Positions 1,153 to 17,439 of a stretch of DNA of 53,441 bases are shown here, piece after piece. The stretch's first letter is position 1. Every line of letters begins with the position of its first letter. A program made the translations under genes and the position numbers. Location of the stretch: NCBI RefSeq assembly GCF_000455365.1, contig NZ_HG315684.1, forward strand, positions 94,920 to 148,360, in the 5' to 3' direction. The notes beneath the pieces were generated by a model. The model was not told where the DNA came from. It was given only the letters and a program-made list of their open reading frames with translations, and searched no databases. Source of the stretch: Halopiger djelfimassiliensis (GTDB taxonomy: Archaea > Halobacteriota > Halobacteria > Halobacteriales > Natrialbaceae).

Positions 1153-1817
1153 CGGTGAAACACCTACGGCCGAGCACGCCGGAAGCGCGGATAACGGTTG
1201 GCCGGACACTCGCAACGTCGCCGGCGGGACCGGACGGCGAGGACACGGCGGTGGCGACCGACCGGGGTTCGACGCGGGTACGGGCCGCAGGTCGGATACG
1301 TTCTTCCCCTCCCCAGTAAATATGAGTCACTCTGCATGATAGTTTCGGCCGGAAGCTACCGTCTCCAGAACCGTCGCAGGGGGCATGCGCTGAAATGCCC
1401 CGGGTGAGCCAACACCCGAGACGTGGCTTCCAACCCGGAAAGGTCTGAAGCCATGATAGCGTATCCGCTCCCGAGACATAAACGTCTCGCACGACATTCC
1501 GTTCTTCCGACGCGGAAAGCGACGCGTCCGAGATGCGTTTTCGGGTCGTACTCGCCCGCGGCGTCGTCCCTGCGGCGAGTCGGCTCGCTCGAGAACGGCG
1601 GCGGGGACTCTGGGGGATTCCCGCGAGGAGCGCATCGTGGCGGCGACCGATCCGGGACGTTGCGCTGGACCGCGAGTCACGGCCGGGGCCGACCGACCGC
1701 CGGAATCGGTTCCGGCCGTGACGGTATCGGGGGTTTCCAGCCCGCCCCCGCCGTCGCCCGCTCGAGTCTCGAGCCGCCGCTGGCGTGCTCGAGCGCCCTG
1801 AAAACGTCATACCGGCC
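1153..1817. other. Long intergenic region between adh and pstA with a possible insertion-sequence remnant
   Basis: No convincing gene. Reading frames here lack conserved motifs. It holds a short plus-strand frame (1394-1456) resembling a TnpB C-terminal tail, a small hairpin at 1472-1489, and a CATATTTACT element on the minus strand near 1316-1325 that could be a distal promoter for the dehydrogenase. The rest is GC-rich without recognisable features. Confidence 0.5.
1394..1489 (+). mobile_element. Possible TnpB 3' tail plus right-end hairpin of a lost IS200/IS605-type element
   Basis: Frame 1394-1456 reads NAPGEPTPETWLPTRKGLKP then stop, in the style of C-terminal tails of haloarchaeal IS1341-type TnpB proteins as I remember them. 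It is followed 15 bases later by a 6-bp stem (CGAGAC 1472-1477, GTCTCG 1484-1489). No other part of the element is visible. This rests on recall, not alignment, so it is tentative. Confidence 0.3.
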
Positions 1818-2738
1818 TCACTGTTGTTGCTGGAACCGGTTCCGGATGAGGATCGCGATCGAGTTGATCGACAGCAGGATGACCAGCAGCGTCACGACGC
1901 CGGCCGCGACGACGCCGTACTGAAACTCCATCTCGGGGCGATCGGCCCACGTGAAGATCTGCATCGGCATCGCGCTGATCTTGCTGAACAGGCTGTTCGG
2001 CACCCCGAACACCGCGGTCGGTGCGCCGATCATGATCAGCGGCGCGGTCTCGCCGATCGCCCGCCCGAGCGCGAGGATCGTCCCGGTCAGAATCCCCGGC
2101 ATCGCCCGCGGCAGGACGACGTTTCGGATCGTCTGCCACTTGGTCGCGCCCATCCCGTAGCTGGCCTGCCGCTGGGAGTCGGGCACCGATCGGATCGCCT
2201 CCTGTGCCGAGATGATGACGATCGGCAGGATAAGCAGGGAGACGGTGAAGCCGGCGACGAGCAACGTCCCGAAGCCGAGATCCAGCAGGCTCACGAACAG
2301 GCCGAGTCCGAGCAGCCCGTAGACGACCGACGGGACGCCCGCGAGGTTGGCGATGTTAAGCTGGACGAACTGCGTCAGATAGCCGTCGCTCGCGTACTCC
2401 TCGAGATAGATCGCCGCGCCGACGCCCAGTGGAAACGTGATCAGCGCGATCACGAGCATGAGCGCGATCGAGCCGACGATCGCCGGGAAGAACCCGGCCT
2501 CGTAGGGATCGCTGAAACTCGGCGGCCCCGTGATGAACCCCCAGTCGATCCAGGGGCCGTGTGCGGGATCGAACAGCGCGAGCGCGTCGACGAGGACGTT
2601 CAACAGCAACACGGCCAGCGCGAGGATGCCGACGAGCGCCGCGGCGAGGGTCAACCACCGGAACGCCACGTCTTTCACCCGGCTGACCTGTCCGAACGCC
2701 GTCTCCGGCGTCTCGGCCTGTTCCGTATCGGCGGTCAT
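1818..2738 (-). CDS. pstA: Phosphate ABC transporter permease PstA
   Basis: Inner permease subunit of the high-affinity phosphate importer, pairing with PstC. 306 residues with about six membrane helices. The EAIRSVPDSQRQASYGMGAT and RAIGETAPLIM segments are the conserved cytoplasmic coupling region of PstA. I start it at ATG 2738, giving MTADTEQAE. The pstC stop and this ATG share one base (TGATG), which indicates translational coupling. A longer frame upstream overlaps pstC and was not used. It is the last gene of pstSCA; the ATPase gene pstB is absent here and lies near 14.4 kb. Confidence 0.95.
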   Translation of the reverse strand: MTADTEQAETPETAFGQVSRVKDVAFRWLTLAAALVGILALAVLLLNVLVDALALFDPAHGPWIDWGFITGPPSFSDPYEAGFFPAIVGSIALMLVIALITFPLGVGAAIYLEEYASDGYLTQFVQLNIANLAGVPSVVYGLLGLGLFVSLLDLGFGTLLVAGFTVSLLILPIVIISAQEAIRSVPDSQRQASYGMGATKWQTIRNVVLPRAMPGILTGTILALGRAIGETAPLIMIGAPTAVFGVPNSLFSKISAMPMQIFTWADRPEMEFQYGVVAAGVVTLLVILLSINSIAILIRNRFQQQQ

Positions 2739-3655
2739 CAGCGATACACCTCCCGGTAGCGCGAGGAGACCCATTCACTAAAGAGGTTCATGGCGAACGT
2801 AAGGACGAACAGCGTCAATCCGACCGCAAAGAGGCTCTTGTACTCCGTCGACTGTCCGACGACGTCGCTCTGTCCGATCTGGACCATCGCGGCCGTCATC
2901 GTCTGGACGGACTCGAGGAACATCCCGCCGGGATCGGTCAGATCCATCATCTTCGGGGTCTGACCGGCGGCGATCGCGACGATCATCGTCTCGCCGATCG
3001 CCCGCGAGAGCGCGAGAATGTACGACGAGAGGATCCCCGACAGCGCCGACGGGACGACGACCGACGTCGAGACGGTAAACTTCGTCGCACCCAGTCCGTA
3101 ACTGGCCTGTCGAAGCGAGTCGGGCACCGCGCTCATCGCGTCCTCGCTGATCGAGGAGACCATCGGGATGATCATGATCCCGACCATGATCGACGCCGAC
3201 AGGGCGTTGAACGTCCCGATCGGGAAGATCCGGTCGAGCGCGGGCGTAATGTACACCAGTGCGAAGTAGCCGTAGACGACCGTCGGCACGCCCGCAAGCA
3301 CCTCGAGGGCGGGTTTGAGGTAGGCCCGCCGGCGCTCGCTTGCGTACTCCGAGAGGTAGATCGCCGTCAGGAGGCCGATCGGCAGCGCGATCAGCGCCGA
3401 GCCGATCGTGATGATCAGCGTGCCGGAGATCAGCGGCCACACGCCGTAAACCTCGTTCGAGGGCGTCCACTGGGTACCCGTGAAGAACTCGACGGGCGAG
3501 ACGACCGCGAAGAAGTCGACGGCGTCGTACAGTAACGTCGCGATGATCGCGAGGGTCGTCAGAACCGAGAGGAAGGCACACAGCGCGAAGAAGGCCTTGA
3601 ACGCGGCCCCGCGGAACGACCGCGCGCCGTCGTGGGTGAGATCCGGCGCACTCAT
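2738..3655 (-). CDS. pstC: Phosphate ABC transporter permease PstC
   Basis: Second permease subunit of the Pst importer, 305 residues with about six membrane segments. Conserved features: GTQWTP in the periplasmic region, the coupling segment [20 protein letters not shown] and the following [14 protein letters not shown], all typical of PstC. Its ATG overlaps the pstS stop by four bases (ATGA, 3652-3655) and its own stop overlaps pstA, so the three genes form one tightly coupled operon read leftwards from the pstS promoter. Confidence 0.95.
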
Positions 3656-4626
3656 TCCCCGGTCACCTCGCTGATCGCGGTCTCGAGTCTCTCGAGGTTC
3701 TCGTCACGGACGTCCTCGGTAACCGGCACGTACCCGACCTCGTTGACGATATCGGTCGCGGCTTGCTCGAGGTAGAATCGAACGAAATCCCGGACCTCGG
3801 CCCGCTCGAGGGATTCCCGGGCGACGTAGATGAAAAGCGGACGGGAAAGCGGCGTGTACTCGCCTTCTTTGGCCGTCTCGATCGAGGGCTCGACGCAGCC
3901 GTCGCCGTCGTCGATCCCGAGGGCCTTGATCTGGTTCGGGTTCTCGTCGTAGTAGGCGAACCCGAAGTAGCCGATCGCGTACTCGTTGCCCTGAACCCCC
4001 TGGACGATCGTCCGGTCGCGCTCGGTGGCGTGGTAATCGGTTCGGTGGCTACCGTCCTCGCCGAGAACCGCCTCGGAGAAGTAGTCGAACGTTCCCGAGG
4101 TCGTGTCCGCACCGAAGAACTCGATCGGTTCGTCGGGCCACTCGTCGCGAACGTCACTCCACCGGTCGGCACCGCCGTCGCGCCAGAGCTCCTGGAGTTC
4201 CTCGACGGTGACACAGTCGATCCAGTCGGCGTCGGGATTGACCACGACCGTCAGCGCGTCCGTCGCGACCGTAAACTCGATCGGTTCGATTCCGTTACCC
4301 CCACACTGTTCTTGCTCGACGTCGGCGATCTCGCGGCTGGCGTTGTTGATGTCCGTCATCCCCGGACAGAAGAAATTCGAGAAGCCACCGCCGGTCCCTG
4401 TCTGGCTGATCGAGACGGTGACGTCGGTCCGTTCCTCCGAGAACGCAGACGCGATCACCTCGGTGATGGGAAACACCGTCGAACTCCCGGCGACGTTCAC
4501 CTCCCTTGCACGGCCCGCGATCGTGCCGACGCAACCGGCCAGTCCGGTCGCGGCGGCGACGCCCGTCCCGGCCAAAAAATCCCGCCGTCCGAGCCCGAAC
4601 GACGGTCCAGTCGTGTCTTTCGACAT
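3652..4626 (-). CDS. pstS: Phosphate-binding lipoprotein PstS
   Basis: Extracytoplasmic phosphate receptor of the Pst system, 324 residues. The N-terminus has a twin-arginine motif (RRDFLAG, residues 14-20) and a lipobox ending in Cys32 (LAGC), so it should be exported folded by Tat and lipid-anchored. Next come AGSSTVFPI and SQTGTGGGF, the phosphate-binding loops of the family, and later [13 protein letters not shown] 4626 is preferred over GTG 4629 because a TATA box (TACTTATC, minus strand, 4651-4658) lies about 31 bases upstream, giving a leaderless mRNA. A 19-base inverted repeat directly upstream of that box is shared with pstB and probably mediates phosphate control. Confidence 0.95.
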
Positions 4627-4661
4627 CACTGAAAGATCGCCAGCAGCCGGATAAGTACCCT

Positions 4662-4680
4662 ACTATGATGGCTATATAGT
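4662..4680 (-). promoter_or_regulatory. Putative Pho operator of pstSCA
   Basis: ACTATGATGGCTATATAGT (plus strand) has 5-base inverted arms ACTAT/ATAGT around a 9-base centre. It sits immediately upstream of the pstS TATA box at 4651-4658. The pstB promoter carries the same repeat at the same place, 15474-15492, with 16 of 19 bases identical and only the three centre bases different. Phosphate-responsive promoter elements are known in Halobacterium pst operons; assigning this one that role is inference. Confidence 0.65.
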
Positions 4681-5165
4681 AGTATGTATCGACGGCACCC
4701 GAATGTCTACTTTCTGAATACACCGATCCGGTGCTCGAGACGCCGGTATAACGCCACAGTACGGGTCACGAGACCTACCGAGAGAAGTGAATACGGACTA
4801 TCGTCCGCCACAGGTAGTTTTTCTGTACTGTAGTATATAGAACGCTCATGGAGTACGTTGTCTCACCGGCGGCAGGAGTCGATACACGGCCGGTTCTCCG
4901 GTCACCGAAACCGACTCTCGGGCGACCCGACGGCTGGAAAAGAACGACGGCAAGTGGGGTCTGGTTCGTTACCGACTGGTAATTGAACACACAGCGGAGT
5001 TCAGCGGAATCTCGAGATCCGGCTGAGGCCGAGGCGGTTGCTGTGCAAGCCCCCTCCATGTGCAAAGCACGACATCACTCAGGCGGAACGTGCGAAGTCA
5101 GTAGGGAACTGGTCGTCTCCGTTGGAAGCCGTACCGTTTACAGCCCAGCGGATGTCACTAACGGT
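4681..5165. other. Intergenic region between pstS and the PAP2 gene
   Basis: Divergent upstream region of about 485 bases. No gene is supported; the reading frames on both strands lack family motifs. A second AT-rich element (TACTGTAGTATATAGAAC, 4826-4843) resembles but does not match the pst repeat. GTTTACAG at 5136-5143 is placed correctly as the TATA box of the PAP2 gene. Confidence 0.5.
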
Positions 5166-6194
5166 ATGTCACGTGGAATCGGTGAGTTCGATCCCATCCA
5201 AGAGGTGATACCAGAGTGGGCAGCAGTTTTCATCGCACTCATCACCCAGTTAGGTGATACCTGGTTTCTCGCGATCCTCGTTGGCGTTGTCTACTGGTTT
5301 GGGACGGAGAAACGCGAAGATGCAGTTGTGATCGTCGGATTCACTGTAGCTGGACTTGGCCTGATCAGTGGGCTCAAACACGTATTCAGGTTGCCCCGAC
5401 CCGACGAACCATTAGTCCAACTCGAATCGCTACCGTGGATCGTTCAGCCGCTTTACGACGTTACTGCAGCAGCTGGTGGCTACGGATTTCCGAGCGGTCA
5501 TGCGTTGATGACGACGATTGTGTATTTCAGTCTGGCACATCGGCTCTCGATCAGTACCCGCCATCGTCGGTTGCTTGGAGCCGCAATTCTCGTCGGAGCG
5601 GTCTGTTTCTCGCGTGTTGCACTGGGCGTCCACTATCTTGTAGACGTGGTTGCCGGAGTCGGTATTGGAATCGCCTTCTTGATCGGTGGCGAAATACTCC
5701 TCGCGCGGATCCCCACTGACCACGGAACAGTTGCACTCGCACTTGCGATCGGTATCGGTCTCTTTGATCTAATTGTCGGAGATATCACTGCTGGAGATGT
5801 GATCTTACTCGGAACGGCACTCGGTTCGTTCGGGAGTTGGCAACTCGTGTTGCTCAGCCAGCGGCTACTCGAGCTTGATCGACCATCACAGATAGATCGC
5901 CCCCTCATCGGACGGGGACTCCTTGCAGTTGGGACACTAACACCAGTACTCATCGCGGTTGAAGAGTACTCCCTGTTTTCGGCACTCGGTCGTGGCGGGG
6001 CTATAGGGCTTACCCTCGCCGTGTTCATTGCGATTCCAATCGCGCGCCACTCCGAACGCGCCCGCCGATTCTGGGTTGCACTCGTCTTCTGGACGAACAT
6101 GGCCGGTCTCGGCGTTCGATTTTTACTTGCTCCAACGACATGGCAGCGGGCGTTCTCACAGGCCAGAGAATACGGTTCCAGACTCTACCGGTAA
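5166..6194 (+). CDS. PAP2 superfamily membrane phosphatase
   Basis: Integral-membrane phosphatase of the type-2 phosphatidic acid phosphatase superfamily, expected to remove phosphate from lipid phosphates or polyprenyl pyrophosphates. 342 residues with about nine membrane helices. All three catalytic motifs are present: KHVFRLPRP (71-79), PSGH (109-112) and SRVALGVHYLVD (149-160). A C-terminal half of further helices extends beyond the core. ATG 5166 is chosen because GTTTAC lies 30 bases upstream and the conserved region starts soon after. The codons use A and T at third positions much more than neighbouring genes, which suggests recent acquisition. Its neighbour pstSCA is a phosphate uptake system, but a functional link is not shown. 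Confidence 0.88.
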   Translation: MSRGIGEFDPIQEVIPEWAAVFIALITQLGDTWFLAILVGVVYWFGTEKREDAVVIVGFTVAGLGLISGLKHVFRLPRPDEPLVQLESLPWIVQPLYDVTAAAGGYGFPSGHALMTTIVYFSLAHRLSISTRHRRLLGAAILVGAVCFSRVALGVHYLVDVVAGVGIGIAFLIGGEILLARIPTDHGTVALALAIGIGLFDLIVGDITAGDVILLGTALGSFGSWQLVLLSQRLLELDRPSQIDRPLIGRGLLAVGTLTPVLIAVEEYSLFSALGRGGAIGLTLAVFIAIPIARHSERARRFWVALVFWTNMAGLGVRFLLAPTTWQRAFSQAREYGSRLYR

Positions 6195-6460
6195 AGATAG
6201 CGCTTTATGATGGATATATGCACCTTCATTCGATGAGTGTTCGAAAGTATCGGAAAATATCCGAATGTATCGTGCTATATCGGCCCTGAGGACTTAAACA
6301 CAAAACCAGTGGACGGGAGATACTATGGGGATCCCGGACGGGGACCTACATACTCCATCGAACGGCCGTTCCCACTTCCTTTCACCATGTCCACTCGAAA
6401 CCGACTCCCTCGAGGTGATCGACTATTGAGCGACAGACGCTGATCGCGCTCGGGACGGTC
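6195..6460. other. AT-rich gap before the next gene, with an alternative start frame
   Basis: AT-rich from 6200 to 6290, then GC-rich. ATG 6388 opens an 18-codon frame that stops at TGA 6442-6444 and overlaps, in another frame, the 5' part of the following gene. One base change could join them, so the true N-terminus of the downstream protein may lie here. Confidence 0.4.
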
Positions 6461-7672
6461 GTGGTCCTCTTCGGCGCGCTCGCCCTGGGATCCGCCATCG
6501 CCGCCCCGTTCGACGACGGTTCGGGCGACCCCCAACAGTCGCTCGTCGCGACCGACGACGACTCGTCGCTATGGCCGTACACAAGCCGCGCAACAGCGTT
6601 CGAAGAGCGGACATTACCGATCAACGTCTTCGTCGGCGGCGATCCGTCCGAAACCCGCCGGTACCTCGAGCAACGCAGTCGCGGCGAGTGGGACGCACCG
6701 ACGTCCGAAGAAGCGGACGTGAGCGACGAGACCCCCGGTTTCGTCGGCACCGAGACCGCCTGGAGTCGCGCCGACGGCTCGACGCGATACGTCTACATCG
6801 ACCACAGTAGTGACGACGAACCGACCGACTCGGACGGCGGCCGCTGGCTTGCTGAGAGCTACCAGCTACATGATGGCGAGTATCTCGGATCGCGACACCA
6901 CATTCGGGCCTACGCACCCGAAGACGATGATGAGTGGACCGCGATACAGGCCCACAGCGAACACTGGGACTGGTTCCGACTCAGCCACACGGTCGACAGC
7001 GTCGAGACCTCGCAGCGATACGTCGAACGCGAATTCATGGGCCACGGGGGCGTGGGAAACGTCACGCGCGTTCACCTCGGAAACGATCGCGGCTCCGATG
7101 CGAACGGCTGGGTGACGATCGTCGATTTCGATGGCGAACCGCCGTTTCACCTCGTCCTCCTCGGCCTGCTTCCGGGAGCGGTGCTCACCCGACGCCGTTC
7201 GATCCGAGACCTGGTTCGGACGCTGTGTGCCGCTCAAGCCCCGCAAAAAGTCGTGCTGCCGGCGTCGTTGATCGGACTCTACCTCTTCGTTCGCTTCGGC
7301 GCGATCGCTGTCGAGACGCGACTTGGCGGCGTCGATCCGCGGCTCATCGCGGTCGCGTTCTATCCGCTCCTCGCCGTTGGGTTACCGGTGTGTGCGTACT
7401 CCTTCGCGCGGGTACTCGATCGGCAGACGGCGTTCGCCGTCAGTGCGGTTGGGTTCGCGATCGCGATTCTGCTCGACTATACGCTGCTCGGCGTGACGCG
7501 GCTTCCGGTCAACGCGTTCGTACACCGCTTCTCGACGGCGATTGCACTCGGATTTATCGCTGCCGGTGCGTCACACACGGCTCGAGTCGATCCCGTCGAT
7601 CACGATTTCGTTCGGCTCGGAGTCCTTCTCTGGCTCGTGACGTTACTCGTGCCGCTGCTCCGATTTCTCTGA
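6461..7672 (+). CDS. Haloarchaeal membrane protein of unknown function
   Basis: 403 residues from GTG 6461. Layout: an N-terminal hydrophobic segment, a roughly 230-residue extracytoplasmic domain containing WPYTSRATAFEERTLPINV and the conserved-looking stretch ESYQLHDGEYLGSRHHIRAY followed by HSEHWDWFRLSH, then about six C-terminal membrane helices. I recognise the pattern from other haloarchaeal genomes but know no function; the His/Tyr-rich motifs could bind metal or form an active site. The start is uncertain: the frame continues upstream without an ATG to TGA 6416, and ATG 6388 lies in another frame. The last 30 bases overlap the convergent gene on the other strand. It precedes a sulfotransferase-like gene, so a cell-envelope role is possible. 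Confidence 0.75.
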   Translation: MVLFGALALGSAIAAPFDDGSGDPQQSLVATDDDSSLWPYTSRATAFEERTLPINVFVGGDPSETRRYLEQRSRGEWDAPTSEEADVSDETPGFVGTETAWSRADGSTRYVYIDHSSDDEPTDSDGGRWLAESYQLHDGEYLGSRHHIRAYAPEDDDEWTAIQAHSEHWDWFRLSHTVDSVETSQRYVEREFMGHGGVGNVTRVHLGNDRGSDANGWVTIVDFDGEPPFHLVLLGLLPGAVLTRRRSIRDLVRTLCAAQAPQKVVLPASLIGLYLFVRFGAIAVETRLGGVDPRLIAVAFYPLLAVGLPVCAYSFARVLDRQTAFAVSAVGFAIAILLDYTLLGVTRLPVNAFVHRFSTAIALGFIAAGASHTARVDPVDHDFVRLGVLLWLVTLLVPLLRFL

Positions 7673-8023
7673 CTGCCGTTCATCGGCGTCCCGTTCGAAC
7701 CGTTCGAAGTTGGAATCGCCGGGGCTTCTGTACGGTCGCGTCCACGGGGACGTCAGTTGTGCGTAGCCGACGATGCCGACGAACGTAACCGCGTAGTACA
7801 TCCACCGCGAGAATCCAGGTCCGGTCCACTGGAACCAGCTCGTCATCACCAGCGCCCAACTGCCCAAGACGATCGCGTCGCGGCAGATCCGCTCCCCGTT
7901 GTGGCGAAGGTACGCGCGCAACCGGTCACGGCGCGCTTCGATCACGGGACGGCCGTCGGACGCCGCTGTCGTGGTTGCAGGCGCACGATCCGCGTCGGCG
8001 GGCGTCTGTTCCGTTCCGGTCAC
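7643..8023 (-). CDS. Small haloarchaeal membrane protein, unknown function
   Basis: 126 residues from GTG 8023. A hydrophilic, Ala/Asp-rich N-terminus (1-45) is followed by RHNGERICRDAIVLGSWALV and two membrane helices (about 50-65 and 75-90), then a charged C-terminal tail. The pattern of two helices with the WFQWTG...SRWMYY segment between them looks conserved-protein-like, but I cannot assign a family. Its 3' end overlaps the end of the convergent gene by 30 bases. It is divergent from the arylsulfotransferase-like gene. Confidence 0.6.
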   Translation of the reverse strand: MTGTEQTPADADRAPATTTAASDGRPVIEARRDRLRAYLRHNGERICRDAIVLGSWALVMTSWFQWTGPGFSRWMYYAVTFVGIVGYAQLTSPWTRPYRSPGDSNFERFERDADERQSEKSEQRHE

Positions 8024-8124
8024 TGTTGTATCGCCGATTCGGCATCGTCCGCATACGCTTTCCGGTCGGCGTCGCGCTGGTGGTGGAAAAAGACACTAAT
8101 AGCCTGCTCGGAAAACAACGCCCG

Positions 8125-8172
8125 ATGGGCTTCCAGTCGGCAGTTCAACACTTGAGGGGGACCAGAGCGTGA
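8125..8172 (+). other. Possible 15-residue leader ORF before the arylsulfotransferase-like gene
   Basis: ATG 8125 opens MGFQSAVQHLRGTRA and stops at TGA 8170-8172, overlapping the GTG start of the next gene (GTGA, 8169-8172). TAATAG at 8098-8103 lies about 27-30 bases before the ATG, the usual place for a TATA box of a leaderless transcript. The first translated frame may therefore be this short peptide, with the main gene reached by coupled re-initiation. A sequencing or true frameshift could also explain it. Confidence 0.35.
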
Positions 8173-9551
8173 CGGATCGGTCGCTTCTCTCGCGAGTCCA
8201 AGCGGGGATCTCCCGGAACCGACTTCGGATCGCGTTCGTCGCCGTTCTCCTTCTGTCGGCAGCCGCGCTCGCGGCCGCGGCGTCGGACAGTCTGTCGACG
8301 GCCTCGGAGGACGAGCTTCCGAACGCACCCGAAACGGACAATCACACGGTCATCACTGAATCGGGACGCGTGGGAACGATCACCGCGTACGCACCCGACG
8401 GCGAGGTACTGTACTACAATAACACGCGAACGAAGTACTTCGATGTCGATCCCGTCGAAGCCGATCCACTGACAGTCGAGTACGCCGCGACGGATACGAT
8501 TCACTCCGAAGGACCGACGTGTAGCGACCCGCCGTGCGCGAGAAACGTTCTCGAGCGCGCCGATCTCGAGACCGGCGAGGTCGAGGTGCTGTACGACCGC
8601 TACGACTACAAGGAACACGCCGGCGAGTGGCACGACGCGGATCGAATCAACGAATCGCACGTGCTGATCGCCGATATCGTCGCCGACCAGGTATTCATCG
8701 TGAATACCGAGACGGAAATCGTCGAGTGGTTGTGGGACGCCCAGAGTGACTTCCCGGTCGAGGGCGGCGGCCCGTATCCGGACGACTGGGCCCACATCAA
8801 CGATGTCGAGTACATCGAGGAAGGCACCCACGACGGACACGTGATGGTCAGCCTCCGGAATCAGGATCAGGTGGTTTTCATCGACCCTGACGAGGGACTA
8901 CTCGAGGAGTGGACACTCGGCACCGAGGACGACTACGACGTCATGTACGAACAGCACAACCCGGATTACGTCCCCGAGTCACGGGGCGGCCCGGCGGTCG
9001 TCGTCTCCGATTCCGAGAACGGCCGCGTCGAGGAGTTCCAGCGCGAGGACGGCGAGTGGACCCGAAGTTGGGAGTGGGCGGACGACAGACTGCAGTGGCC
9101 CCGCGACGCCGATCGCCTTCCCAACGGGAACACGCTCGTCACCGACACGCACGGCAACCGCGTTATGGAACTCGACGCGGACGGCGAGATCGTCTGGCAG
9201 GTCGCGTCCACGCTGCCCTACGAGGCCGAGCGACTCGAGACGGGCGACGAGAGCGCAGGGGGACACAGTGCGCAGGAACTGGACCTCGAGTCACGAACGA
9301 CCGACGGTGCTACCGCCGACGGGTTCGACGTTCTTGCGGTGGGGAGCGACGTCGTCGAAGCGGTCGTCCCTAACCGCATCCACAACGGCATTCTCTTCGC
9401 CACCCCGGTGTGGATGGGGCGTCTCGAGTTTGCCGTCGCCGGCGTCGCCCTCCTCACGGGACTCGTTTGGGTCGGGCTCGAGATCAAGTGGCACCTTGGA
9501 GACGCGGGCATCGGATTCCGACTGCCGGTCTACCGTCGCGGCGACGAGTAA
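8169..9551 (+). CDS. Arylsulfotransferase-like (ASST family) membrane-anchored beta-propeller protein
   Basis: 460 residues. An N-terminal membrane segment (about 20-40), then a repeat-rich beta-propeller with motifs such as HINDVEYI, VVSDSENGRVEEFQ and LPNGNTLVTDTHGNRVMELD, which are characteristic of the arylsulfotransferase (ASST) family, and a C-terminal membrane helix (about 417-436) with a short basic tail. ASST enzymes move sulfate between phenolic compounds; in haloarchaea related genes sit with surface-glycan genes, so transfer of sulfate to an exported lipid or glycan is plausible inference. The start is GTG 8169, overlapping the end of a 15-codon frame. A sulfatase-family gene lies 3 kb downstream on the same strand. 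Confidence 0.75.
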   Translation: MTDRSLLSRVQAGISRNRLRIAFVAVLLLSAAALAAAASDSLSTASEDELPNAPETDNHTVITESGRVGTITAYAPDGEVLYYNNTRTKYFDVDPVEADPLTVEYAATDTIHSEGPTCSDPPCARNVLERADLETGEVEVLYDRYDYKEHAGEWHDADRINESHVLIADIVADQVFIVNTETEIVEWLWDAQSDFPVEGGGPYPDDWAHINDVEYIEEGTHDGHVMVSLRNQDQVVFIDPDEGLLEEWTLGTEDDYDVMYEQHNPDYVPESRGGPAVVVSDSENGRVEEFQREDGEWTRSWEWADDRLQWPRDADRLPNGNTLVTDTHGNRVMELDADGEIVWQVASTLPYEAERLETGDESAGGHSAQELDLESRTTDGATADGFDVLAVGSDVVEAVVPNRIHNGILFATPVWMGRLEFAVAGVALLTGLVWVGLEIKWHLGDAGIGFRLPVYRRGDE

Positions 9552-9622
9552 TGCGCAGCGAACGACCGGCCGCGCTTCGCTACCCACACATACGATTCCA
9601 CGCTCGTCGCGAGGTCACCTGT

Positions 9623-10150
9623 TCAGAAGAAGACGGGTACACGGCCGCTGATCAGGTAGAGGGCGGCGAGGAGGGACTGGAAGAACAGCGATCCGATCGC
9701 CGATAACGCGGTGAACCGTCGCGGATCCATTTCGGACAGTCCAGCGGGGACGGTAAGCACGCCTCTTACGAACAGCATCGTATTGCTGACGCTGACGGCG
9801 ATACCGCCCCACCGGTTGAACCAGCCGTCGAACCGCTCAAGCCGTGATTCCGTGATCGGAAACCACCGCTTTTGCAGCACGTAGTCTCGGCCGGCGCGGC
9901 GAACGAGTACGAACAGTACGAGCTGTCCGATCGTCGTTCCGACCACTGCGACGGCGACGATCGTGAGCAGCGTCGGAATCGACGAGCCGATCAGCGCCAG
10001 TGCTGCCGGAACGACCACTTCGCTCGGCATGAACCGCAGCATCATCGCTCCCTCGAGGATGCAAATTCCCAGCAGGACGACGAACGCGAGGTCCGACGCG
10101 AACAGCGCCTCGAGCCAGGGCGGAACGGCCTCGAGTTGCAGGAGCGCCAT
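9623..10150 (-). CDS. DedA/VTT-domain membrane protein
   Basis: 175 residues with about five hydrophobic segments. The pattern EGAMMLRFMPSEVVVPAALA near the N-terminus, the GTTIGQLVLFVLVRRAGRDYV stretch and the later FNRWGGIAVSVSNTMLFVRGVLTVPAGLSEMDPRRF match the DedA/SNARE-associated (VTT) fold, whose members move or flip lipid carriers across membranes and support membrane homeostasis. CTTAGC on the minus strand about 30 bases before ATG 10150 fits a TATA box. Its neighbours include a flippase-like protein and sulfate-handling enzymes, consistent with envelope lipid traffic. Confidence 0.8.
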   Translation of the reverse strand: MALLQLEAVPPWLEALFASDLAFVVLLGICILEGAMMLRFMPSEVVVPAALALIGSSIPTLLTIVAVAVVGTTIGQLVLFVLVRRAGRDYVLQKRWFPITESRLERFDGWFNRWGGIAVSVSNTMLFVRGVLTVPAGLSEMDPRRFTALSAIGSLFFQSLLAALYLISGRVPVFF

Positions 10151-10246
10151 CGATACCGGCTACAACGAGTCGAAGCTAAGTGTTGGTGCCTGAGATACGA
10201 TATCCGTCACAAGATCTGTGGCGGTGTGAGCCGAAGAACCATCGTG

Positions 10247-10699
10247 ATGGAGACGGGACGAGTGCTGTTTCTGACGGGAGCGGTCCTTACGCACGCTGTC
10301 GTTGGATACGCGCTCGTTCGCGGATTTACCGACGCCGATCCGCGGATCGGAATCGTCTTTGGAATCGCTCCGGACGCGGACTTCTGGTTTCCCGCGGCGT
10401 GGGGCTGGCCGCTGGTCCACCGTGGGCTTACCCACACGCCGCTTTTCGCACTGCTGCTCGTCGTCGGAGCGTACGCGATTTCTCGGGATCGAACGGCTGC
10501 GCTCGCCGTCGGGCTGGCGATCAGTTCCCACCTCGCTATCGATTCGCTGTCGCCGGCGGGCATCGCCTGGCTGTTCCCGCTTGAGGCGAGTGCAGGTCCC
10601 GGTCTTCCCGTCCACGGACCGGCCGCGACGGCGGCGCTCTGGCTCGTCTCGATCGGAGTCCTCGCGTGGCGAGCCGGCGACGACCCGTCGATCCGATGA
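10247..10699 (+). CDS. Membrane-bound metal-dependent hydrolase, DUF457/YdjM-like
   Basis: 150 residues with about four membrane helices. The conserved histidines and acids lie in GIAPDADFW, HRGLTHTPLF and SSHLAIDSLSP, which is the DUF457 (YdjM/LexA-regulated membrane hydrolase) pattern of metal ligands at membrane-helix ends. The substrate is unknown for this family. ATG 10247 is used; GTG 10226 in the same frame is an alternative with a weak AT-rich element 30 bases upstream. A second DUF457 protein is encoded on the opposite strand just downstream, and the two genes converge. Confidence 0.75.
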   Translation: METGRVLFLTGAVLTHAVVGYALVRGFTDADPRIGIVFGIAPDADFWFPAAWGWPLVHRGLTHTPLFALLLVVGAYAISRDRTAALAVGLAISSHLAIDSLSPAGIAWLFPLEASAGPGLPVHGPAATAALWLVSIGVLAWRAGDDPSIR

Positions 10700-10769
10700 G
10701 GAGAGCCGTTTCGATCCGCGACGGTCACGCGACAAGCGATTTCGAGCGCGGCCACGGAATCCGCAGGGA

Positions 10770-11237
10770 TTATCGGATCGTCAAGATCGCCGATGCGAGC
10801 AACGTTCCTGATCCGAGAACCAACAGCGCGCGATTGATCCGGTGGTTTTTGGACTTGAACCAATCGAGGGTGACGTGTCGTCGCGAAAGCGGCGCGAGGG
10901 GACTGATCCCCATCGGCGTCACGATGTCACCCGCAAGGTGGGCGAGGATGCTGCAGGTCCCGATGACGAACCCGAACCGAAACGCGAGACTCGAGCCGAG
11001 GACGAGTACCGACGTGAGACCGGCGAGCAGCCCGACAAGGACGGCGAACCAGACCGTGTGTGTCGGTCCGCGGTGGCGAAGCTGTGGGAGCGGTTGATCA
11101 ACGTCCGGGAGGTTTGCCAATCCGACGGCGAGCCCCGCGCCGAACACCGCTAACTCGAGCGACCAGCGGTGACTCACCAGCGGCAGGAGGGGGGCGTAAA
11201 GCAGCGCGTTGAATCCGATATGGCCGCCTCGATACAT
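10770..11237 (-). CDS. Membrane-bound metal-dependent hydrolase, DUF457 family
   Basis: 155 residues with about four membrane helices. Motifs GLANLPDVDQPLP, LRHRGPTHTVWF and HLAGDIVTPMGISPL give the Asp/His ligand set of DUF457 proteins, followed by a soluble tail with DWFKSKNHRINR. It converges on another DUF457 gene, and the two are diverged in sequence, so they are paralogues rather than a recent duplication. This version, with the TPMGISPL segment, is the more typical haloarchaeal form. The substrate is unknown. Confidence 0.8.
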   Translation of the reverse strand: MYRGGHIGFNALLYAPLLPLVSHRWSLELAVFGAGLAVGLANLPDVDQPLPQLRHRGPTHTVWFAVLVGLLAGLTSVLVLGSSLAFRFGFVIGTCSILAHLAGDIVTPMGISPLAPLSRRHVTLDWFKSKNHRINRALLVLGSGTLLASAILTIR

Positions 11238-11325
11238 GGGAGCGAGGTACCCAACCTCCGGGCCGAACGGAGATTAACCGCTCGATTTCGCCTCCAGTCG
11301 AGCGCTCAAGTCGGTGTCCGAGCGG

Positions 11326-12345
11326 TCACTCAATCGCCCTGACGCCGAACGTCGAGACCGAGACCCCGCCGATCAAGACCGGCATCCAGTAGATCGCTCC
11401 ACGGAAGAGAAGCACGGCTGCGGTGATCGCCGACGCTGCGACGCCGGTCGTCGGCACGAGCAGCGTGACGAACGCGGCCTCAATACCGCCGAGCCCGCCC
11501 GGAAGCGGCGCTGCGCCGGCGAGATTGGCCAGCGGAATTACGAACAAGAGGACGGACAGCGGGACGCTGTAGCCGATTGCGGTGAAGGCCGCCGCGAGCG
11601 CTGCTACTTGAAAGAGCCACCCTATCAGCGAGAGGCTGACCACCGTCGCAAGGCGGTACCGATCCGTCGCGACGCGCTCGATGTTCTCGAAGAACCGTTC
11701 CATTCGATCCGTCAGATCAGTCTCGAGCGTTTCGGAGTCGAACCCCGCGAATCCGAATCGCTCGATACGGTGAGCGATGATGGCGGGAAGCCGGTCGACG
11801 ACGGCATCTCGGGACCGCCAGACGAGCGCCATCCCGAGAACGATGGCCGCGATCAGCGCGATAGCGGAGCCGACGGCGGTCTCGAGGCGTTCGCCGACGG
11901 TGGCAGTAGTTGCGTAGTAGCCGATCCCGACGAGGATCAGTGAAATCGACGGAACGACGTTGAGCACATCGACGCTCGCGATTCCGGCGAGTCCGGTCTC
12001 ATAGCGCGCGTCGGATACGTTCGAGATGAGCAGGGCGGCGACGGGTTCGCCGCCGGCCTGTCCGAAGGGCGTGACGTTATTGGCGAAAACCGCGCCGGCA
12101 TAAACGAAAAACACCTTTCCGACGGGAACCTCGACCCCGAACGCGCCGAGGACGCTCCGGAGCATCAAGCTCCAAGCGGCCAGCCAACACAGCGCGAGAA
12201 CGAAGGTGGCGACGACCAGCAACGGCGTGGCCGAGCGTAAGGCGGCGAGGACGTCGCGCGCGCCGACGGCGAAAAACAGGACGGCGAAGACGGCAACCGT
12301 TCCGAAAGCGCCCGTCAGGAGAGCGCGCTTGTTTCGCTCGTCCAT
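11326..12345 (-). CDS. Flippase-like / lysylphosphatidylglycerol synthase TM-domain protein
   Basis: 339 residues, about eight membrane helices, starting at ATG 12345. The segment VYAGAVFANNVTPFGQAGGEPVAALLI is the signature of the LPG_synthase_TM (UPF0104) family, and the late LANLAGAAPLPGGLGGIEAAFV repeats the same family pattern. Members include the transmembrane part of MprF and candidate flippases for lipid-linked sugars; no soluble aminoacyl-transferase domain is present here. It lies between DUF457 genes and a sulfatase-family gene, which supports a role in export of modified lipids or glycans. Confidence 0.85.
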   Translation of the reverse strand: MDERNKRALLTGAFGTVAVFAVLFFAVGARDVLAALRSATPLLVVATFVLALCWLAAWSLMLRSVLGAFGVEVPVGKVFFVYAGAVFANNVTPFGQAGGEPVAALLISNVSDARYETGLAGIASVDVLNVVPSISLILVGIGYYATTATVGERLETAVGSAIALIAAIVLGMALVWRSRDAVVDRLPAIIAHRIERFGFAGFDSETLETDLTDRMERFFENIERVATDRYRLATVVSLSLIGWLFQVAALAAAFTAIGYSVPLSVLLFVIPLANLAGAAPLPGGLGGIEAAFVTLLVPTTGVAASAITAAVLLFRGAIYWMPVLIGGVSVSTFGVRAIE

Positions 12346-12607
12346 AGCAGATGTGGATCATCAGACCTCTTGCAACGTCAGATTGTCGCTGACAGCCGTT
12401 GGACGGAACGCGACGCCGCCAGCCTCGTCGATGGATCGCGGTCGAGGGCGAGGCACCGGTCGCGCCGTGTTCGCCTTCTGTAGTGAACGACTCCCGAGCC
12501 ACGGATCGGTCGTGAGGGGGCTTCGAACTGCGGCGCGAAGATGAAGCACCGCGTCGGCGCGCAAGCAGCGACGCGTTTTATTGGGACGGCTCTATTCGTC
12601 ACCCGTA

Positions 12608-14215
12608 ATGGCCGAGACCCAGCAGTCGAACGTGCTCTTCGTCGTGCTAGACACGGTTCGAAAGGACCGGTTGAGTCCGTACGGCTACGACCGCGGGACG
12701 ACGCCCGAACTCTCGCAATTCGCTGCGGAAGCGACCGTTTTCGAATCGGCCATTGCTCCCGCTCCCTGGACGCTGCCAGTCCACGCCTCACTGTTCACTG
12801 GCCAGTATCCGAGCCAGCACGGGGCCGTTCAGCGGAGTCCGTACCTTGAGGGGGAGACGACCCTCGCATCGGTGCTGTCGGCCGCCGGATACGACACGGC
12901 GTGTTACTCCTCGAACGCCTGGATCACCCCCTACACCGGCCTCTCCGAGGGGTTTGACAGGCAGGACTCGTTCTTCAAGGCGCTTCCCGACGACGTCCTC
13001 TCGGGGCCGCTGGCGAATGCATGGCAGACCGTCAACGATAACGACTACCTCCGCGATCTGGCGTCGAAGCTTGTGCGTCTCGGGGCGGTGGCCCACGCCA
13101 AACTCGCCAGCAGCGAAGGCGAGGACTCGAAAACGCCGTCAGTGATCGACCGCACGAAATCCTTCATCGACGACAGCGGCGACGGCTGGTTCGCGTTCGT
13201 TAACCTGATGGATGCCCACCTGCCCTACTATCCGCCCGAGGAGTACCGTGAGGCGTTTGCTCCCGGCGTCGACCCCGACGAGGTCTGTCAAAATTCGAAA
13301 ACGTACAACTCCGGTGCCCGAGAAATCGACGACGATGAGTGGGAAGCGATCCGGAGGCTCTATGACGCAGAGATAGCTCACATGGACGCTGAACTCGGAC
13401 GCCTGTTCACGTGGCTCCGAGAGACCGATCGATGGGAGGAAACGACCATCGTCGTCTGCGCCGACCACGGGGAACTTCACGGCGAGCACGACCTCTACGG
13501 CCATGAGTTCGCACTTTACGACGAACTCGTCAATGTCCCGCTGCTGATCAACCATTCCGAGCTCGAAGCCGACCGACGCGCCGATCTCGTCGAACTGCTC
13601 GACTGCTACCACACGGTCCTCGAAGCGCTCGACGTCGATCCCGACGCCGTCGTCGACCTCGAGGCGAGGGACGCTGTCAGCGTCACTGCGTTCGATCCGA
13701 CGCGATCGCTGCTTTCGGACGAGTATCGCTCCTTCGACGACGTCTTGGAATCGGACCGAGACCTTGAGCCCGATCCCGGTCAGCGGGCCGTCCTTGAGTC
13801 CGAAAGCGAGACTGAAGCCGAAGACGACTACGCGTTCATCGAGTACGCCCAGCCGGTCATCGAACGACACCACTTAGAGGAGAAAGCAAGCGAGGCCGGT
13901 ATTGATCTTCCCGACGACCACCGCGCCTACTCGCGGCTGCGAGCCGCCCGAGGGCTCGACGCGAAGTACATCCGTGCGGATCGGATTCCCGACGAAGGCT
14001 ATCGACTCGACGAGGACCGACCGAAAGAGACGCCGATCGATCCAGCAGATGACGAAGTCGTCGCCGCTGCCGAGCGGACACTCTCTCGCTTCGAGGACGC
14101 GGTCGGGGGTGCGTGGGTCGACCCGAGCGAGACGACCGGTGATGAGCAGGACGTCTTGGCGGATACCGACGAGGAAACGCGCGATCGGTTGCGAGAACTC
14201 GGCTATCTCGAGTGA
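12608..14215 (+). CDS. Sulfatase / alkaline phosphatase superfamily hydrolase
   Basis: 535 residues from ATG 12608, chosen because TTTTATT (12576-12582) lies 32 bases upstream. NVLFVVLDTVRKDRLSPYGY carries the first metal-binding Asp; CADHGELHGEHDLYGH carries the later Asp/His ligands. The nucleophile region APWTLPVHASLFTG (51-64) has Thr55 where true sulfatases have the Cys or Ser that becomes formylglycine, and His instead of the usual Arg. This makes a phosphatase, phosphotransferase or non-FGly hydrolase as likely as a sulfatase. The acidic C-terminal third (from about 400) is a soluble extension. No signal peptide is visible, so it probably acts in the cytoplasm. Confidence 0.8.
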   Translation: MAETQQSNVLFVVLDTVRKDRLSPYGYDRGTTPELSQFAAEATVFESAIAPAPWTLPVHASLFTGQYPSQHGAVQRSPYLEGETTLASVLSAAGYDTACYSSNAWITPYTGLSEGFDRQDSFFKALPDDVLSGPLANAWQTVNDNDYLRDLASKLVRLGAVAHAKLASSEGEDSKTPSVIDRTKSFIDDSGDGWFAFVNLMDAHLPYYPPEEYREAFAPGVDPDEVCQNSKTYNSGAREIDDDEWEAIRRLYDAEIAHMDAELGRLFTWLRETDRWEETTIVVCADHGELHGEHDLYGHEFALYDELVNVPLLINHSELEADRRADLVELLDCYHTVLEALDVDPDAVVDLEARDAVSVTAFDPTRSLLSDEYRSFDDVLESDRDLEPDPGQRAVLESESETEAEDDYAFIEYAQPVIERHHLEEKASEAGIDLPDDHRAYSRLRAARGLDAKYIRADRIPDEGYRLDEDRPKETPIDPADDEVVAAAERTLSRFEDAVGGAWVDPSETTGDEQDVLADTDEETRDRLRELGYLE

Positions 14216-14329
14216 TTTCGAGCAAAAGATTTGGTTTAGCCGTTTTCTTTCGCTATTTTCCGATTTCGACCGGATAGACGTATTAAAGCCGTGTTTTCTG
14301 GCCTCGGAAAAGGAAAAGCCGATGCTAAA

Positions 14330-14440
14330 GCCCAGCAGTCGACGCGTGGAACGTATGCGTCTTGAAACCACAGGGCCATTGCACTCGGCCTGAAACCCCG
14401 TGGCGGGATTCTCGCGTCTTCAGGCGCGGGAGGTGGTCAA
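14330..14440 (+). mobile_element. Solo right end of an IS200/IS605-type element with TnpB 3' stub
   Basis: The plus-strand frame ending at the TGA near 14391 reads SSRRVERMRLETTGPLHSA, which matches the C-terminal tail of haloarchaeal TnpB proteins (RVERMRxET). It is followed by a right-end block with a stem-loop (CTCGCGTCTTCAGGCGCGGG, about 14412-14431) and a GTCAA-like end. Nothing of the rest of tnpB or a left end is visible upstream, where the sequence turns into the sulfatase gene's AT-rich trailer. It is a relic lying between the sulfatase-family gene and pstB. Confidence 0.6.
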
Positions 14441-15438
14441 CCGAACTTGCCGGTAATGTAGTCTTCGACGCGGTCGCTTTCGGGGTTTTCGAAGATCTTG
14501 TCGGTATCGTCGAACTCGACGAGGTTCCCGCCGGTGAGAAAGACCGCGGTCTTGTCCGAGATACGCGCGGCCTGTTGCATGTTGTGAGTGACGATGACCA
14601 CGGTGTACTCCTCGGCGAGTTCCTCGACGAGGTCCTCGATCTTCGAGGTCGCGACCGGATCGAGCGCGGAGGCGGGTTCGTCCATCAGGATGACTTCCGG
14701 ATCGGTCGCGATCGCCCGCGCGATACAGAGTCGCTGTTGTTGGCCGCCCGAGAGATCCATCCCGCTCGAGTCGAGCTGGTCCTCGACCTCGTCCAGAAGC
14801 GCGGCTCGCTCGAGTGCGGTGTGGACCTTTTCTTCGACATCGTCGTCTTTGCCCTGCACCCGGAGCCCGTAGGCGACGTTGTCGAAGATGCTCTTCGGGA
14901 ACGGGTTCGGTTTCTGGAAGACCATCCCGATCTTTCGGCGCAGCGCGACGGGGTCGACGTCCTCGTCGTAGACGTTTTTCCCGTGGAAGTAGAGGTCGCC
15001 CTCGACACGGGCGACGTCGATGAGATCGTTCATTCGATTGATCGACCGCAGGAACGTCGATTTCCCACACCCCGACGGCCCGATCAGCGCCGTCACCTTC
15101 TTTTCGGGGATATCCATGTTGATCCCCTGCAGCGCCTGCGTATCGCCGTAGAAAACGTCGAGATCCCGCGCCTCGATGACGGCGTTGTCGACGCGGGGCG
15201 ATCCAAGCGGTTGGCTCTCGCTTGCCATCTCGGCCCCGGTAGCCGATTCGGACGCAAGCGCCGACGTAGTTTCGGTCTCCGCGTCCGCTACCGTCTCGGA
15301 ACTGCCGCTGCTCGAAGTCATGCCGGACGCTTTTGCGTCGGTCCCGAGCATGGTTGTCGTAAAACGCCCGAGATCGGGAGCGGCCGATGTGAGGGTCGAT
15401 TGGAGTCCCCGAAGCCGATCATTCGTCTCATCACTCAT
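14437..15438 (-). CDS. pstB: Phosphate ABC transporter ATP-binding protein PstB
   Basis: ATPase of the Pst phosphate importer, 333 residues. Walker [10 protein letters not shown] (120-128), the [15 protein letters not shown] signature and Walker [14 protein letters not shown] are intact, followed by the PstB-typical [18 protein letters not shown]. The ABC domain begins near residue 86; before it is an unusual Ser/Thr/Ala/Glu-rich extension absent from ordinary PstB. ATG 15438 is supported by TATTTAG (minus strand, 15463-15469) 31 bases upstream, so the extension is probably made. It is separated by about 10 kb from pstSCA but carries the same promoter repeat. phoU is divergent from it. Confidence 0.95.
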
Positions 15439-15473
15439 CACGTCATTCGAGAGCTGGATTGCCTAAATACCAT

Positions 15474-15492
15474 ACTATGTCCGCTATATAGT
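15474..15492 (-). promoter_or_regulatory. Putative Pho operator of pstB
   Basis: ACTATGTCCGCTATATAGT (plus strand) with arms ACTAT/ATAGT, directly upstream of the pstB TATA box at 15463-15469. It is the twin of the repeat at 4662-4680 before pstS, differing only in three central bases, and at the same distance from box A and start codon. Confidence 0.65.
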
Positions 15493-15903
15493 TCTATATT
15501 GCACTCTGATATCGTGAAGATAACCCCAGCGCAAACGGTCGCGGGGACGGAAACGTCGACACCCCAGCCGAGCAGCCACAATCCGGACCGAACGCCCAGT
15601 AACCCGTGCGAACCGACGATTCGAGTATCCCGCTCTCACCGTCTCCGGCGCTCGCCTCGCCTCGAAACCGGTCTTTCGTGTCTCGTAGTCTGACAGCCTA
15701 CTCAGCCGCCGTGTGACGGAGGCGGTGATCGTTTCGACTCCTATATACTTCTTCTCGTTAGGCGTATGGTTGCAATAATAGAACGGGAAGTATCGACGAA
15801 CGGAAACCCGGATCACGCGATGTGTGGATTGATTCCGGAGATATCGATACCTCTCTATAGACCCGGGTATGTTTATATTCTGGAGTCCGAAGCGATCCAG
15901 TAT
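15493..15903. other. Divergent pstB-phoU intergenic region
   Basis: About 410 bases. No gene is supported. The phoU promoter is TTTATA at 15872-15877, 32 bases before ATG 15904; just upstream is ATATCGATACCTCTCTATAG (15841-15860), an AT-rich stretch that could bind a regulator. The remainder is ordinary GC-rich sequence. Confidence 0.5.
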
Positions 15904-16899
15904 ATGGAAACGCGAAAGGTTCAGGTAACGGGTGGGTCCACGTACACCGTCTCCCTCCCGAAAACCTGGGCGACCGAAAACGGCGTCGATGCCGGGACGA
16001 CCGTCGAATTCTATCCCGAGGACGATACGCTGCTGTTGACGCCGCGATCGGAGACGGAACGCCAGGAGGGAACGCTCGACGTCTCTGATCTCGAGGGCGA
16101 GCGGCTCACGCGAGCCGTGATGACGATGTACGTCAGCGGCTTCGACATCATCGGACTCGAGGCCAACCGCATCACGACCGATCAGCGTCGGGCGATCCGG
16201 GACGCGACACAGAGCCTCGTCGGCGTCGAGGTCCTCGAAGAGACGACCGACAGCGTCGTTATTCAGGACCTGCTCGACTCGTCGGAGCTATCGATCGTCA
16301 ACGCCGTTTCCCGGATGCGGCTGATCGCCCAGTCGATGCTCGCGGATGCGGTCACGGCCCTCGTCGAGAACGACGACGACATCGCCCGGGACGTCATCGA
16401 TCGGGACGACGACGTCGACCGACTCTGGCTCGTCGTCTCCCGGATCTTTCGTGCGACCCTTCGGTCGCCGCGGGCCGCCGAAGAACTCGGCGTCCACCGC
16501 GAGGACTGTTTCGACTACCACTCGAGCGCCCGCCAACTCGAGCGGGTCGCCGACCACGCGGCCAAGATCAGCAACCTCGCGCTCAAACTCGACGAGATCC
16601 CCGCCGACGTCGCCGACGCGTTGCAAGCGCTGCATGCCGATGCGTCCGATGTCCTCGAGAAGTCGATGGATGCGCTGTTTGCCACCGAGACGGACGAGGC
16701 AAACCGGCTGGGTCACGCCGCCCGCGAGGCCGTTCTCGAGATCGACGAGCATACGCGAACGATCGACGACATGCTCCGTGACCTCGAACCCGTTCAGGCC
16801 CAGTCGCTCGGGCTGATCGTCGACTCGCTGTCCCGCAGCGCCGACTACGGCGGGAACATCGCGGAGACGGCGCTTCAGAAGGCAGCACCGCGCCCCTGA
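15904..16899 (+). CDS. phoU: PhoU-family phosphate regulator with N-terminal AbrB-type DNA-binding domain
   Basis: 331 residues. Residues 1-48 form a SpoVT/AbrB swapped-hairpin domain (METRKVQVTGGSTYTVSLPKTW...), and the remainder is PhoU-like helical bundles, for example DYHSSARQLERVADHAAKISN and the repeated metal-binding helix SLSRSADYGGNIAE at the C-terminus. This fusion is typical of archaea, where PhoU itself can be the DNA-binding phosphate regulator. ATG 15904 is chosen because TTTATA lies 32 bases upstream; a longer frame from 15766 would put the AbrB domain internally. It is the best candidate to bind the shared pst repeat, though that is inference. Confidence 0.9.
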   Translation: METRKVQVTGGSTYTVSLPKTWATENGVDAGTTVEFYPEDDTLLLTPRSETERQEGTLDVSDLEGERLTRAVMTMYVSGFDIIGLEANRITTDQRRAIRDATQSLVGVEVLEETTDSVVIQDLLDSSELSIVNAVSRMRLIAQSMLADAVTALVENDDDIARDVIDRDDDVDRLWLVVSRIFRATLRSPRAAEELGVHREDCFDYHSSARQLERVADHAAKISNLALKLDEIPADVADALQALHADASDVLEKSMDALFATETDEANRLGHAAREAVLEIDEHTRTIDDMLRDLEPVQAQSLGLIVDSLSRSADYGGNIAETALQKAAPRP

Positions 16900-17079
16900 G
16901 CGGACTCCGGTCGGCCCACGCTTTCGGCGCTTCGTTCCATTGCGGTCGGTCCGCTCGACGTTCCGGCCCGGCCCACGTTCGGGTTCGAACGCGTACGTAC
17001 TCCTCAATAGCCCACTTAGCACACGCTTTGTAGGTGGACTGCCTGCGTCCCGACACGGCGTTTCATCGCCGGCCGAACC

Positions 17080-17316: not shown

Positions 17317-17439
17317 TCCGCCGTCGAATCGGGGGACCAATTGGACGTGGCCACTCCGCGTTCCTCTTCGGTTCGTCAGAAATAGCCCAGTGGTGCCCCT
17401 CTCGGGTAGCCTTCGATAGCACCGTCGAACGATCGGCGA

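Follow-up and report, generated by a model that had tools for sequence, protein, structure and literature searches.

A three-unit repeat at two separated pst promoters of Halopiger djelfimassiliensis, its link to pst genes across the haloarchaeal order, and a candidate PhoU-AbrB regulator

We analysed a stretch of 53,441 nucleotides from Halopiger djelfimassiliensis (contig NZ_HG315684.1, positions 94,920 to 148,360 of the forward strand; hereafter the window), in which the genes of a Pst phosphate transporter lie in two places. The genes for the phosphate-binding protein and both permeases (pstSCA) stand together, and the gene for the ATPase, pstB, is found further along the same strand behind a promoter of its own (Table 1). 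Divergent from pstB is a gene whose product matches MazE_antitoxin at residues 7–50 (E 4.6e-11) and PhoU at residues 135–224 (E 2.8e-19); both Pfam matches are above cut-off and correspond to the PhoU2-type domain plan, which we call PhoU-AbrB here. Tandem GTG-ATG start codons are present at pstS (4624–4629) and at pstB (15436–15441), and an RTGATG start is common in the pst genes of relatives. Between pstA and an alcohol-dehydrogenase-like gene (named by eye) there is a GC-rich, hairpin-like stretch at 1340–1490; an Rfam search of window positions 1–20000, this stretch included, gave no match.

Table 1. Genes, promoter elements and inserted segment discussed in the text, with window coordinates.
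Feature	Position	Strand	Evidence
pstA, permease	1818..2774	-	TIGR00974 250 bits, above cut-off
pstC, permease	2738..3655	-	TIGR02138 270 bits, above cut-off
pstS, phosphate-binding protein	3652..4626	-	NCBIfam TIGR02136 272 bits, above cut-off
P-box and box A of pstSCA, TACATACTACTATATAGCCATCATAGTAGGGTACTTAT	4651..4688	-	PWM score 56.7 (training site); model E 1.2e-9 in own genome
Box A (TATA box) of pstS, TACTTA	4652..4657	-	31 bases to pstS ATG; conserved in alignment
Repeat unit 3 of pstS promoter, TCATAG	4663..4668	-	
Repeat unit 2 of pstS promoter, ATATAG	4672..4677	-	
Repeat unit 1 of pstS promoter, ACATAC	4682..4687	-	unit at same offset in 35/53 non-redundant sites
Segment of ~9.7 kb between pstB and pstSCA without counterpart in four relatives	4689..14436	.	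blastn colinearity
pstB, ATPase, own boxed promoter	14437..15438	-	TIGR00972 386 bits, above cut-off
P-box and box A of pstB, AATATAGAACTATATAGCGGACATAGTATGGTATTTAG	15463..15500	-	PWM score 56.4 (training site); model E 1.3e-9
Box A of pstB, TATTTA	15464..15469	-	31 bases to pstB ATG; conserved in alignment
Repeat unit 3 of pstB promoter, ACATAG	15475..15480	-	
Repeat unit 2 of pstB promoter, ATATAG	15484..15489	-	
Repeat unit 1 of pstB promoter, ATATAG	15494..15499	-	
PhoU with N-terminal AbrB/MazE-type DNA-binding domain, divergent from pstB, candidate regulator	15904..16899	+	

The original prediction, made from the letters of the window, held that both pst loci carry the same 19-base promoter repeat, identical at 16 positions and equally far from the start codon within otherwise unrelated surroundings, and on recounting each of these points was borne out. 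The window contains exactly two copies of the pattern ACTATGNNNGCTATATAGT, at 4662–4680 and 15474–15492, with all 16 specified positions matched, and there is no further window match at three or fewer mismatches. At that threshold shuffled windows yielded a mean of 0.03 matches, and two matches were seen in none of 100 shuffles. Read on the minus strand, which carries the genes, the element is ACTATATAG-N4-CATAGT; a few bases separate its end from box A, whose first base is the same counted distance from the ATG at pstS and pstB. Across the 94 bases upstream of the two genes only 37 positions are identical, most of them inside the element. Elsewhere in the genome of 3.78 Mb, nothing else matches the 19-base pattern at two or fewer mismatches; four more places match at exactly three, and a reversed control gave six at three or fewer. 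The two sites are near-identical, as would be expected had one promoter recently been copied from the other, and chance would be the remaining explanation of a match between just two promoters. We give these ideas almost no credence, since the flanks are unrelated, the spacer bases differ and, in relatives, the pstS and pstB promoters of other genera carry the box as well.

The repeat as drawn in the prediction turned out to be too short, with a third unit lying upstream and box A conserved too. In an alignment of 74 unique pst-upstream sites, the unit A-Y-A-T-A-G appears three times in the same orientation, at steps of 10 and 9 bp, and the row ends just before the TATA box; the units lie at model positions -9, 1 and 10, and the third is followed by TAG and then by a conserved TA(C/T)TTA box A. 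Units 2 and 3 were part of the search seed, while unit 1 was not used for finding sites. It nevertheless matches AYATAG at five or more of six positions in 35 of 53 non-redundant sites, compared with at most 5/53 at offsets -30 to -10; unit-like matches are also seen at offset -1 (13/53) and at offset 22, which is box A (22/53 sites at 5/6). Of the two window promoters, that of pstS has ACATAC as unit 1 and that of pstB has ATATAG, and the complete boxes score above the training median of 53.8, the maximum being 59.0 (Table 1). At a spacing of 10 and 9 bp, the units would all face roughly the same side of the helix. A simple dyad, ACTAT-N9-ATAGT, was considered and rejected: its outer left A is only 42% conserved, and unit 1, predicted by the direct-repeat reading, duly turned up. 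The element as a whole is a direct repeat, in which unit 2 (CTATATAG) alone among the parts is a perfect palindrome. This palindrome ranks highest in a self-comparison of the PWM, which leaves room for the binding of a dimer at each unit.

We then have to consider how specific the element is for pst promoters. Among 100 relatives, the 19-base pattern at two or fewer mismatches is found at 76 places in 62 genomes, against 64 places for the reversed control. All 21 places with no or one mismatch precede pst genes. The 55 places with two mismatches include 35 before pst genes, two before an ArsC-like gene and 16 before neither (53 were assigned by the neighbouring gene, and two were without fetched surroundings). 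Since the number at two mismatches is near background, we relied on a sequence-only covariance model built from 53 sites. In the own genome this model finds the pstSCA and pstB boxes (Table 1) and a second pst operon (8.3e-5), and the next match is at 0.355; all three sites are in the training set, which flatters their E-values but not the absence of other matches. In 61 haloarchaeal genomes, the model finds at least 78 places at E<=0.05. Of these, 69 were assigned by script to pst genes, one to an ArsC-like gene and four to other genes, and four were left unfetched. Three of the unfetched places (G020, G073:2136630 and G007:C2) are directly upstream of PstS matches and two of the others (L097 and L110) are some 240–250 bp upstream of pstS or pstB, which gives a final placing of 74 at pst genes, one at an ArsC-like gene and three leftover (G064, G077 and G082, all with E >0.02). 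At E<=0.01, 70 of 71 places are upstream of pst genes and one is upstream of the ArsC-like gene; five of these 71 placements were made from PstS match positions and mapped boxes. All such counts are lower bounds, with at most 107 candidates scored per genome here, 16 in the search of 392 genomes and 22 in the phylum-wide draw described below, under stricter filters.

Across the own genome and the relatives, the element is therefore, by the sequence model, almost exclusive to pst promoters, and frequent occurrence before unrelated genes is not seen in the 61 genomes. P-boxes also stand before arsenate-reductase/low-molecular-weight phosphatase-like genes at L160 (G073:C1:1274840-1274869), which is the model match, and at L089 (8019–8056), which was found with the pattern; boxes in this position would link arsenate handling with the uptake of phosphate. 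In a reading without any operator, the TATATAG and CATAG units would be core-promoter elements, forming a tandem TATA box that gives a second start site. They are indeed A/T-rich and close to box A, which itself resembles a unit in the 22 sites mentioned above. General promoter elements would however be widespread, whereas these units are phased, mostly keep a fixed final G and are near-exclusive to pst by the model, and we consider a purely core-promoter role improbable.

The element is spread throughout the order, with at least 267 of 392 genomes having a site at E<=0.001 and one to four sites in each; the regulon appears tiny. A phylum-wide draw of 294 genomes contains at least 50 with a site at E<=0.01, of which six lie outside the order and have weak matches (E 3.1e-4 to 3.6e-3). 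Six exact matches to the core pattern in viral contigs, all A/T-rich and without a match to pst, PhoU or ArsC queries, are taken as chance. A protein search brought in 40 named loci, comprising 13 from Haloferax (H. volcanii not among them), 9 from other haloarchaea and 18 from bacteria. Twelve of the 13 Haloferax loci reach a box score of 48 or more before pstS and also have a divergent PhoU-AbrB of 70–72% identity; the thirteenth is the second pst copy of H. gibbonsii, with a score of 34 and no PhoU-AbrB beside it. Both box and PhoU-AbrB are present in five of the 9 other haloarchaeal loci (L258 and L260-L263), L266 has PhoU-AbrB with a box score of only 16, and L259, L264 and L265 have neither. 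No box score above 8 was found in the 18 bacterial loci. No box precedes pstS in two plasmid-borne pst loci, one in Halorussus limi and one in Natronosalvus rutilus, and the PhoU-AbrB relatives there are all distant. In the genus g33 (L146-L148), several genomes with pst genes have a box that consists of unit 3 and box A or is undetectable, and two other g33 genomes have a site at E<=0.001. Box loss, which would count against the prediction in close relatives whose pst genes respond to phosphate, is seen at some second or more distant pst loci.

The prediction had described the pst loci as split, and they are indeed about 10 kb apart; the separation of pstB from pstSCA appears to be specific to the lineage, with DNA inserted between units that were neighbours. 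In relatives pstB usually adjoins pstSCA, and several have separate boxes for pstB and pstS. Four of them (G045, G002, G022 and G038; L066, L083, L112 and L113) have pstB just upstream of pstSCA and colinear with the window by blastn. The distance from the pstB stop codon to the pstS box is 403 bp in G045 and 250 bp in G002, and the gap between the aligned stretches is about 130 bp in G022 and about 290 bp in G038. The simplest reading is that the split arose by insertion of the ~9.7 kb segment, which encodes a PAP2 phosphatase, an arylsulfotransferase-like protein, an LPG-synthase-TM protein and a sulfatase, and includes a weak match to DedA/UptA-type transporters. The stretch at 14390–14440, by the pstB stop codon and at the right border of the insertion, is hairpin-rich and looks like the right end of an IS200/IS605-type element; its core has one exact copy in the genome (itself) and two with 2 mismatches. 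In G022 and G038, two pstB-like copies flank pstSCA, and the copy beyond pstA is missing from the window. With the integrity of the operon lost and the shared box kept, the locus would illustrate how coordination of an archaeal transporter can survive the separation of its genes. The accompanying claim, that a single regulator governs both halves, has strong support: the box is almost exclusive to pst promoters by the model, fixed in position relative to TATA box and start codon, and kept at both promoters 10 kb apart.

The original prediction named the PhoU protein with its AbrB domain as the nearest candidate for this regulator, and here the support comes from association. Of 119 mapped boxes, 87 have a divergent PhoU-AbrB no more than 1.5 kb away, a count that carries no estimate of specificity as the loci were chosen for box, pstS or PhoU. 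Four of the 119 boxes are without a pst gene by script, of which L156, L168 and L177 precede pstB or a fragmented pstS and L224 is left over. When the genes around 60 loci were clustered, PhoU-AbrB was present at 43 of the loci and in most cases transcribed away from the pst genes with the box. It is the most widespread gene with a DNA-binding domain there; the other DNA-binding or transcription clusters are DUF7344 (9 loci, counted as possible), BAT/HTH_10 (7), TFIIB-repeat (4) and TFB (3), with ten gene clusters covered by the domain scan. In 20 loci from other families of the order, picked from the strongest of the matches listed in the search of 392 genomes, PhoU-AbrB is beside the box in every case, four times with another class of PstS. 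Box and PhoU-AbrB are both kept at L206, L213, L219 and L221, where PstS is of another class.

The N-terminal strand of PhoU-AbrB, RKVQxTGGSTxTVSxPKxWA, is also strongly conserved. Its fixed letters (R4-K5-V6-Q7, T9-G10-G11-S12-T13, T15-V16-S17, P19-K20 and W22-A23) are invariant in all 72 proteins beside strong boxes and are the same in 12 proteins beside weak or variant boxes, so that no residue can be named for the variant box. This variant belongs to a second pst operon, which in many Natrialbaceae faces a paralogous PhoU-AbrB (~75–83% identity); it approximates to GATATATAG-N-TATTAG, and the box A behind it is rich in T. Variant boxes face PhoU-AbrB at L225-L229, L232, L233, L235, L240 and L244, and do not at L230 and L234. 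Among 60 PstS-selected promoters (L145 was left out as too near a contig edge), 26 have both a box above the score threshold and a divergent PhoU-AbrB, 15 PhoU only, 4 box only and 15 neither (Fisher p = 0.005), a sample that is phylogenetically dependent (13 Haloferax loci) and of mixed origin and so lends weak support. By eye, 11 of the 15 PhoU-only promoters show a different box.

Some PhoU-AbrB genes have no adjacent box (L163, L164, L170, L178, L179, L191 and L192 among others), and in G006 and G033 a PhoU-AbrB of 80–81% identity occurs where no box was found and the PstS matches are very weak. Conversely, PhoU-AbrB is absent from the 1.5 kb around 32 of the 119 mapped boxes, one case being the plasmid pst locus of Halostagnicola larsenii. 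Such cases would be expected if the box were a phosphate operator read by an unlinked transcription factor, with PhoU-AbrB only a partner or in control of other sites, and direct repeats at 9–10 bp also recall the sites of tandem winged-helix proteins. We regard this as rather unlikely, though it is the alternative that deserves most weight. No other DNA-binding gene is nearly as common in the 60 loci (43 against at most 9), and some of the 32 are second boxes of loci whose first box faces PhoU-AbrB. A PhoU-AbrB match is moreover found somewhere in all 100 genomes searched, being remote only in a few such as G067 and G077; for the same reason its presence or absence cannot discriminate between the readings. 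By this association PhoU-AbrB is the best candidate ligand of the box, and a link between the two is likely.

Taken together, we favour as probable the reading that the repeat is a P-box operator of a small regulon essentially limited to Pst genes, with the divergent PhoU-AbrB as its likeliest ligand. The three AYATAG repeats, at about one-turn spacing, would present the protein immediately upstream of BRE/TATA, where it could touch or recruit TFB/TBP. The position suits either an activator aiding TFB/TBP or a repressor blocking both. The PhoU domain presumably senses the transport state of Pst, as in bacteria, and in PhoU-AbrB this part would follow the state of the PstSCAB transporter while the AbrB part would read the box, one protein thereby replacing the bacterial PhoU-PhoR-PhoB relay. 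The two boxes of the window would let the regulator switch pstSCA and pstB together despite the insertion. The usual preference of AbrB-type dimers is for dyad sites, and this element, taken whole, is a direct repeat; the palindrome in unit 2 is consistent with a single AbrB dimer on each unit, successive dimers being separated by about one turn. We infer that PhoU-AbrB binds the box, with the units bound in tandem on one face of the DNA, and that it activates at low phosphate. Activation is favoured by what has been stated of the pho-boxes in both H. salinarum pst promoters, namely that they are essential for upregulation (PMC6560208). More tentatively, and with somewhat more doubt than confidence, we suggest that a single PhoU-AbrB fusion has replaced PhoU-PhoR-PhoB altogether, sitting as a row of AbrB dimers on a three-turn AYATAG ladder in register with the TATA box at one to four promoters per genome, and that the paralogue and its GATATATAG-N-TATTAG box serve the second pst operon. 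A precise three-unit operator across the order and one leading candidate protein reduce the question to a simple experiment.

Furtwangler et al. reportedly described, in 2010 (Mol Microbiol 76:378), a P-box or pho-box in the pst promoters of Halobacterium salinarum. Set beside the published box by description only, the window element is very probably this haloarchaeal P-box/Pho-box. Both are promoter elements of Pst operons, and the boxes of the window lie, like the H. salinarum P-box, directly upstream of the TATA box. The prediction had called for a comparison with the Halobacterium box, and the element itself is present in G119, a genome taken as H. salinarum because its bacteriorhodopsin is 100% identical over residues 3-262: a box at E 2.0e-6 lies upstream of pstS, with PhoU-AbrB divergent. 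The search of G119 yielded a single full pst operon with this class of PstS, and the second reported operon was not located there. In Haloferax, the transcripts of HVO_2375-2378 are leaderless and present at low phosphate (PMC6560208), and HVO_2374 (PhoU2), with its N-terminal DNA-binding domain, is a predicted regulator of phosphate uptake syntenic with a pst operon (PMC6267482). The PhoU-AbrB of the window has the same domain plan and is likewise syntenic with pst; unlike HVO_2374, it faces pstB, with pstSCA 10 kb away. These papers already describe a pho-box for pst promoters of haloarchaea and assign PhoU proteins a part in regulation, and in the literature searched the regulator reading the box is proposed rather than proven; the titles and abstract openings searched contain no description of a three-unit layout or of a proven ligand. 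The three-unit layout, the order-wide spread, the separate pstB box and the ArsC-like targets come from the present analysis.

The bacterial counterpart differs in sequence and spacing. The Pho box of PhoB is built of 7-bp CTGTCAT-type units with 4-bp spacers, giving an 11-bp period, and, like the window element, it repeats its unit in one direction, about once per helical turn, upstream of the pst core promoter. The haloarchaeal element, with AYATAG units at a period of 10 and 9 bp and an archaeal core promoter immediately downstream, is not a PhoB-type Pho box.
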